Assembly (NCBI GenBank): GCA_025055285.1
Contig: JANWXM010000026.1
Location: 1 to 49,708, forward strand
DNA: 49,708 nucleotides
Direction: 5' to 3'
DNA from: Saprospiraceae bacterium
Lineage (GTDB): Bacteria > Bacteroidota > Bacteroidia > Chitinophagales > Saprospiraceae
In this document: positions 40,965 through 41,918 of the stretch, one piece after another
How the letters are laid out: each line of letters starts with the position of its first letter
How positions within the stretch are numbered: position 1 is the first letter of the stretch
Position numbers and translations under genes: made by a program
The notes under the pieces: generated by a model
What the model was told of the DNA's origin: nothing
What the model saw: the letters and a program-made list of their open reading frames with translations, nothing else
The model's database searches: none

Positions 40965-41918
40965 CTATTCAGAAGCAGCTAGCCAAATAAGCCATGTATT
41001 CGCAAGGATATAACCAATCAGAATAACTTTCCAACTACGCTGGTCAAAGCGGGCAGAAGCTTCAGGCATTCCGCTTTTCCAAAGACGCAATGAAGCTACC
41101 GACAAGACAATACAAAGCAAAAGAAAGAAATACGTGAGCACATGAAGTTTGTCTACTAGAGTGAAGGTAGTTGATTGTGGTAAAATGGAGTCTACGATAT
41201 ATTTATTGCCTACCGCAGCAAATAGCCCTCCCACTGAAAGGCCAAAGCGCGGGTCAACCTCAACAGGGTCGATGAAGAAGACAAGCCAGGAAATGAAGAA
41301 GGAAACATACATCCCAGTAAATAGAGAAAAGAACAATCCCAATGTTCTGCGTCGCACGTAAAGAATGAGTTCGGCGTGGGCGTAGGCACTACTTTCTGTT
41401 AACGTAGGATCGCCGTAGGTAGTGTCGTAGCGCCGAGTGCTCGTAACAAGCTCGAAACGTTCAATCTCCCAATTGGACAATCCTATCCTGGGGTCTATCT
41501 TAGTATTTTTTATATCCGGTGCGTAGACCAATTGAGAGGTATCGCGATCGCTTTCTTCTATTTCAATAACCATCTTTTGCACGTCAAAAGGAAAGCACCT
41601 TAGATCCCAGTCTTTTTTGAATACTGCAGTCAAGCGCTTGGAGGCCCAGCGAATACCACCCTTTTCCTCAGAATAAATCAGCTGTTCTTCTAGCTCTTTA
41701 GCGTTAGGGAATTCCAGTGTTTCTTCTGCCCGCAGAGAAGAATCTCGATAATTTAGCCATACCCAAAATTGAGCAGAGAAGCACTTTTGGCTTAAATTTA
41801 TATCATAAATGTCATTGACGTATAACCCAATAAGTACCGTATCGGGCTGAGCGTTTAGGCAAGGTAATAACAGAAAAAGAGAAAAAAGACTCATCAATGG
41901 CCGAAAAAACAAAAACAT
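40965..41918 (-). CDS. pentameric ligand-gated ion channel homologue (Cys-loop superfamily)
   Basis: 317 residues with the architecture of bacterial pLGICs: a signal peptide (to about LNAQ), a beta-rich extracellular domain of about 165 residues, and four membrane helices at about 192-216, 225-246, 254-279 and 297-315. The extracellular part has the superfamily pattern: [20 protein letters not shown] near the start and the hallmark FPFDVQ at 109-114. C108 precedes it but the second Cys-loop cysteine is absent, as in other bacterial members. The second helix begins [14 protein letters not shown] and is followed by a short loop and [11 protein letters not shown]. Ligand and ion are not predictable. 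The start could also be 41894. Confidence 0.8.

Follow-up and report, generated by a model that had tools for sequence, protein, structure and literature searches.

Bacterial pLGICs are used as models of nerve receptors, and this work rests on few proteins. In known pLGICs, a hydrophobic cavity lies behind the pore helix M2 and is used by anaesthetics. The features of the family were tabulated by Jaiteh et al. in 2016, and the available text of that paper (PMC4795631) gives the sequence [F/Y]PxD at the beta6-beta7 loop (Table 1, Pro in 100%), Pro in 77% and Gly in 5% of members at position 14' of M1, and, in M2, a basic residue at 0' (79%) with Leu (75%) or Phe (13%) at 9'; at that date, a biological role was known for no unicellular member. 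The available part of Tasneem et al. 2004 (PMC549065) names P, G, or S at the M1 kink position and places AChBP W82 and P84 among the conserved positions linking the pocket to the inner sheet. Moreover, a GABA-A study, in its available part (PMC11432007), describes the Trp pair of WxD/WxPD as stabilising the domain.

Gene and predicted protein

The window, i.e., the whole stretch of 49,708 nucleotides analyzed here, contains a pLGIC-family ORF of 317 aa plus stop at 40965..41918 on the minus strand, recognized by profile and sequence matches. The initial annotation had called it a bacterial homologue of the Cys-loop neurotransmitter receptor channels, and this was borne out by PDB, NCBIfam, Pfam, and profile matches far above chance. 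When phmmer was run against PDB, a GLIC variant chain (6.3e-10), GLIC itself (3eam, 1.5e-9), and 2vl0 (2.8e-9), which we take to be ELIC, were found. TIGR00860 matched at 7.9e-13 and NF033918 at 1.8e-11, with 47.9 and 44 bits against curated cut-offs of 280.2 and 500, respectively, and PF02931 gave a partial match to residues 83-191 at 3.8e-5 (23.7 bits, cut-off 26). The profile search proposed along with that annotation led to pLGICs and not to an unrelated membrane family: the A3 profile, built from 25 relatives, matched GLIC over almost its full length (E 2.8e-27, positions 22-313 of 315), and M2 was aligned gap-free from -2' to 23'. No variation was observed at P110, D112, W150, R190, R224, P247, and D256 in the 25-row alignment.

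The predicted protein begins with a putative signal peptide (residues 1-23, 41850..41918; this and all ORF features below are on the minus strand), where a hydropathy peak at residues 3-21 is followed by LNA-Q. This assignment, also made by the initial annotation, draws on hydropathy and on the orthologues, whose N-terminus varies before a conserved 10-residue start. A compact extracellular (periplasmic) ligand-binding domain follows (residues 24-190, 41349..41849), placed by PF02931 and by the profile alignment to GLIC; it contains FPFDVQ at 109-114, as previously pointed out, and the first four of these residues are the Pro-loop signature (109-112, 41583..41594). The helices were assigned as M1 (residues 194-217, 41268..41339), M2 (222-245, 41184..41255), M3 (252-278, 41085..41165), and M4 (290-315, 40974..41051). 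Of the four membrane helices claimed earlier, M1, M3, and M4 were recovered as hydropathy peaks (198-216, 258-276, and 298-316, respectively); M2 was not seen as a peak and was placed via the alignment to GLIC. The ORF encodes no cytoplasmic domain. By homology, the protein is predicted to adopt a beta-sandwich plus four-helix fold and to assemble as a pentamer.

The ORF was the only match in its own 3.6-Mb genome, and its closest named relatives were found in Saprospiraceae metagenome-assembled genomes (3 loci, 71-84% identity). A 173-bp intergenic stretch (41919..42091) is common to the ORF and a divergent neighbour, named from its sequence as the enolase gene, whose true start, read by eye, is the ATG at 42092. 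On the other side, a gene of the endonuclease/exonuclease/phosphatase family (40090-40947) is convergent with the ORF, which therefore lies outside any operon. Elsewhere in the window, a lone SLATT_1/DUF4231 protein is encoded at 38421-38969 on the minus strand (NF033634, E 1.7e-37). This domain occurs in nucleotide-signalling defence; PADLOC returned no defence-system model match at the window, this protein included. The stretch of about 1.1 kb at 38970-40089, where the longest ATG/GTG/TTG ORF has at most 63 aa and neither a tRNA nor an Rfam match was found, may hold a decayed gene. At 37460-38299 on the plus strand, an apparently membrane-anchored protein carries two PASTA-domain stretches (PF03793, 5.1e-17), and Pfam finds no kinase domain in it.

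The A-type subfamily and its genomic context

With the A3 profile (E <= 1e-5), matches were found in 34 of 395 class genomes. Of these 34, 26 genomes, the window's own included, carried R-F-G-L-S-V-G-x-L-F-A-x-V-G-N-K-Y-I-x-D, the M2 signature, or a near variant of it (counted by hand in the 30 genomes read, 26 with and 4 without). In addition, 25 of 395 genomes in the phylum sample and 33 of the 60 nearest genomes (E <= 1e-3) gave matches, and an orthologue of at least 60% was found in 12 of 36 same-genus genomes, once as a 76-residue contig-end fragment only. The plasmid collection contributed 10 matching records, 8 from Azospirillum and 2 from Streptomyces; in the four of these that were read, the G-N-K-Y motif was present in Azospirillum sp. 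B510 and absent from A. brasilense and both Streptomyces records. Phage or viral carriage was rejected, as phages gave no match and none of the 34 stretches with a pattern match in viral_contigs was confirmed.

We retained 91 distinct sequences with at least 150 aligned residues, dropping shorter fragments, and split them by M2 into 49 A-type, 27 B-type, and 15 other sequences; this set is biased towards the kind of A3, because nearly all loci had been collected by means of this profile or of its seed. After removal of the M2 columns, a single branch set all 49 A-type sequences apart from the other rows in a quick tree (92 rows, SH-aLRT 87). A careful tree of 86 rows, again without the M2 columns and with six long or fused rows left out, gave this branch a support of 93/84 and recovered it in 96% of 200 bootstraps; this support is moderate, and both trees come with a warning of long branches meeting. 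The subgroup suspected in the initial annotation is supported as a distinct subfamily, by its M2 signature and one-branch placement, and it is mostly missed by the Pfam model. PF02931, a domain model (E <= 1e-3), recovered 6 of 395 class genomes, 5 of them above cut-off, versus 34 for A3, a full-length profile (E <= 1e-5), although the two 395-genome samples may differ. Among six A-type proteins scanned, three passed the PF02931 cut-off (L003, 27.1; L009, 35.6; L045, 26.8) and three failed (the window protein, L077, and L093). Since curated models catch some members only, the branch is easy to overlook, and in three annotated plasmid records the annotation was 'hypothetical protein'. Among the literature matches listed, mostly open papers without supplements, no published description of the A-type branch was found in searches on Bacteroidota or loop-A pLGIC variants, and VGNKY or GNKYI occurred only in three papers that, by title and abstract, are not about channels. 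To judge from the sequences, the new element is the A-type subfamily itself, scattered and poorly annotated, with a compact putative sensor domain and a nearly unchanged glycine-lined pore.

Two variations in gene content were observed. One genome (G375) has four A-type copies, two in tandem on contig 36 (L064) and one each on contig 1 (L112) and contig 17 (L118), read as a lineage-specific expansion. In three same-genus genomes, open frames of 721-729 aa end in the pLGIC module (L039 in G017, L041 in G001, and L042 in G022). The N-terminus of L041, the one scanned of the three, resembles a periplasmic binding protein (PF13458, E 4.9e-4, below cut-off), and such fusions are known in kind from the available text of PMC549065.

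The analysis of 20 regions from 18 genomes or records showed no recurring neighbour genes beyond synteny within close species, and an operon or partner gene was therefore rejected. The genes eno and infB were neighbours only within the clade of the window itself (the window, G018, and G035), and an amino-acid permease gene recurred in three close species (L099, L101, and L102). Pfam gave unrelated functions for 20 chosen neighbours, 2 of them without a family; besides this permease, the transport-related neighbours comprised a Na+/H+ exchanger (L105), an efflux protein of the outer membrane (L021), and a homologue of TspO (L103). At one locus of Azospirillum sp. B510 (L093, 4779-9277, plasmid pAB510b), a CheW-domain gene lies 19 bp downstream of the pLGIC gene, with an MCP gene next and MlaE/MlaA-like genes upstream. 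From this neighbourhood, which agrees with a chemotaxis idea put forward in the available text of Tasneem et al. (PMC549065), chemosensing is our favoured guess for the physiological role.

As dS was saturated between the window protein and its nearest relatives, selection was measured on relatives, and two close pairs gave dN/dS values of 0.048 (L002-L003) and 0.030 (L009-L012), indicating purifying selection. A decayed gene was rejected on these values, the open frame, and the presence of one copy.

The shortened extracellular domain and the glycine-rich M2

As read from the sequence, the nearly universal pLGIC features set out by Jaiteh et al. in 2016 (PMC4795631, available text) are present in the protein, except for the M1 kink Pro. 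The Pro-loop is F109-P110-F111-D112; the beta9 aromatic is W150, with W in 49/49 A-type and 27/27 B-type sequences; the pre-M1 Arg is R190, which does not vary in either the 13-row or the 25-row alignment; and the M2-M3 loop Pro is P247, with Pro in 48/49 A-type sequences. In M2, the basic 0' residue is R224 and the 9' residue is F233, both conserved in 49/49 A-type sequences. The usual kink Pro at 14' of M1 is replaced by Gly202, a minority state on record. The two cysteines flanking the Pro-loop in metazoan members are absent, as is the loop-A W-x-P (available text of PMC549065). Because W-x-P is absent from Table 1 of Jaiteh et al., as available, its loss lowers the standing of the protein as a canonical member and not as a superfamily member.

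The single cysteine beside FPFD that had been highlighted in the initial annotation is present as C108 (41595..41597), just before the motif, and proved to be a private substitution. At this position, the 49 A-type sequences have N (23), R (14), D (5), S (2), and C, K, A, Q, and H (1 each). The Cys-loop cysteines of the GABA-A alpha5 chain flank the FPxD Phe at a distance of 7 residues on each side, and the equivalents here are K102 and M116; in bacterial members, the first position is typically polar and the second hydrophobic (available texts of PMC4795631 and, for the second, also PMC549065). C108 as a Cys-loop remnant was thus rejected, being cysteine in 1/49 sequences and at neither Cys-loop position.

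From the beta1 Gly to the Pro-loop Pro, 79 residues were counted in 42/49 A-type sequences (range 79-83), 83-85 in B-type sequences, and 99 in GLIC. The loss of about 20 residues is local, because the spacing from the Pro-loop Pro to the beta9 Trp, 40 in 42/49 A-type sequences, equals that of GLIC. The shortening site maps to residues 57-74 (41697..41750), where GLIC has about 20 residues more, including the loop-A W-x-P; from the known fold, the missing piece presumably includes beta3. The A-type loop C is about 8 residues longer, since 40-43 residues separate the beta9 Trp from the pre-M1 Arg versus 32 in GLIC. This lengthened region (41382..41429) contains the conserved aromatics Y164, Y168 (Y or F), and Y179, which, with the conserved W52 and W54, are candidates for a rebuilt pocket. 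W-x-P was found in the extracellular domain of 0/49 A-type, 0/27 B-type, and 2/15 other sequences, the two being L070 and L089 (Bacteroidota, W-x-P-D; GLIC has W-x-P-E). Most other sampled relatives also lack it, so the segment loss extends beyond the A-type; in the A. brasilense and Streptomyces proteins, too, position 57 and the Pro are 53 residues apart. At the sequence level, this loss, absent from the initial annotation, is a larger architectural difference than that in M2.

The Gly/Ala-rich second helix described earlier was confirmed as a 14-residue stretch at 227-240, and M2 has D-2', R0', G2', G6', F9', G13', N14', K15', Y16', and D19'. Among the 49 A-type sequences, Gly6' was found in 48 and Gly2' in 40, and Asp/Glu in 43 at -2' and 47 at 19'; the conservation at 13'-16' is partly by construction, because the set was chosen by a motif there. 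At 2' and 6', GLIC has T and S, the glycine receptor chain G and T, and the GABA-A alpha5 chain V and T. Gly2' is not unusual, as it also occurs in the glycine receptor chain, and the unusual pore proposed earlier stands at Gly6' only, which is the departure from these three chains.

M2 was also the best-kept segment, with a mean weighted top-residue frequency in the 49 A-type sequences of 0.78, versus 0.62 for M1, 0.56 for M3, 0.49 for the extracellular domain, and 0.41 for M4. In 312 pairs with 25-30% identical extracellular domains, M2 was 67% identical and M1+M3 42%. The B-type M2 identity was 0.50 versus 0.69 for the A-type at 30-40% pairs, and 0.81 versus 0.77 at 40-60%. The conservation of the A-type M2 speaks for a functional rather than a decayed pore. 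On a helical-wheel reading, N14' and K15' would lie on the back of M2, perhaps near the conserved D256 and H259 of M3. Compared with GLIC, the linker between M1 and M2 has two additional residues; the profile places D222 at -2' and the single-sequence alignment puts the gap two or more residues later, so which acid matches the -2' of GLIC is unsure.

Proposed channel, alternatives, and known systems

We consider it fairly probable that the ORF encodes a solitary homopentameric inner-membrane pLGIC, periplasmically gated and probably cation-selective. The compact periplasmic beta-sandwich would sense a small ligand, probably in a pocket at the subunit interface lined by loop-D W52 and loop-C Y164, Y168, and Y179, and the Pro-loop (FPFD), pre-M1 R190, and M2-M3 P247 would couple sensing to the M2 bundle. 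The gate would be a ring of Phe residues at 9' (with Tyr at 16'), the glycines at 2', 6', and 13' would leave the remaining pore wide, and the acidic rings at -2' (D222) and 19' (D243) would favour cations. Prokaryotic ion selectivity is not safely readable from an M2 motif, according to the available text of PMC4795631, and P at -1' beside R0' also recalls an anionic-type motif, which counts against the cation reading. It seems unlikely, though, that D-P-R before M2 acts like the P-A-R motif of GABA and glycine receptors and makes the channel anion-selective. These receptors do share R0', the glycine receptor shares G2', its R-V-G-L is resembled by R-F-G-L at the start of M2, and D256, if read as 26', recalls the D typical there of metazoan anionic channels (PMC4795631, available text); but the A-type acids at -2' and 19' are kept at the frequencies given above, and both positions are acidic in GLIC. 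The non-conducting sensor suggested in the initial annotation, in which a pLGIC body would pass a ligand signal on to a partner while its Gly-rich M2 formed no working pore, fits poorly and appears quite improbable: conservation is highest in M2, with the pore-facing 6' and 9' nearly fixed, acidic rings are retained at both pore ends, and neither a conserved partner gene nor a cytoplasmic domain in the ORF was found. The lack of a 6' hydroxyl ring and the relative adjoining CheW and MCP genes agree with a sensor, and the M2 conservation by itself could also reflect a packing role.

The protein could quite possibly be an ordinary member of a recorded bacterial branch, the Cytophaga hutchinsonii kind with three members in Tasneem et al. 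2004, one of these three versions having the simple architecture; yet the available text of PMC549065 contains neither a glycine pore nor a missing loop-A segment and gives W82/P84 as conserved. A more doubtful proposal is a separate pLGIC class spanning Bacteroidota, Azospirillum, and Streptomyces, which would have lost the loop-A portion of the neurotransmitter-binding domain and rebuilt its pocket with a long aromatic loop C and the loop-D Trp. The window's branch would add a wide glycine-lined pore gated by a single Phe ring and, behind M2, a polar N14'-K15'/D256-H259 cluster replacing the hydrophobic cavity.

A branch that lacks the loop-A W-x-P and has a pore lined by glycines would offer a natural test of which receptor parts ligand binding, assembly, and conduction require. 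The proton-gated channel of Gloeobacter violaceus, GLIC, is alike in its full-length homology, Pro-loop, beta9 Trp, pre-M1 Arg, short M3-M4 loop, and equal-length M2 with acids at -2' and 19'. It differs in having T2', S6', I9', A13', and I16', where the window protein has G, G, F, G, and Y, and in its loop-A W-I-P-E, the window protein having about 20 fewer residues before the Pro-loop and about 8 more in loop C. The ELIC chain 2vl0 matches the window protein with the search value reported above, and DeCLIC has an extra N-terminal domain (PMC9897478, available text) that is absent from the window protein. The prokaryotic ART-LGICs of Tasneem et al. 2004, C. hutchinsonii included, share the signal peptide, LBD, 4-TM arrangement, and Cys-less loop (PMC549065, available text), whereas the A-type lacks W-x-P at their conserved W82/P84 (AChBP numbering). 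The group B paralogues, about 25% identical and most from the same genus, are similarly shortened (83-85 versus 99 residues in GLIC) and have Gly6' in 21/27; their M2 differs in having mostly S2', L9', F13', L14', and Q15', and among the rows listed they keep the Pro at 14' of M1, where the window protein has Gly202.
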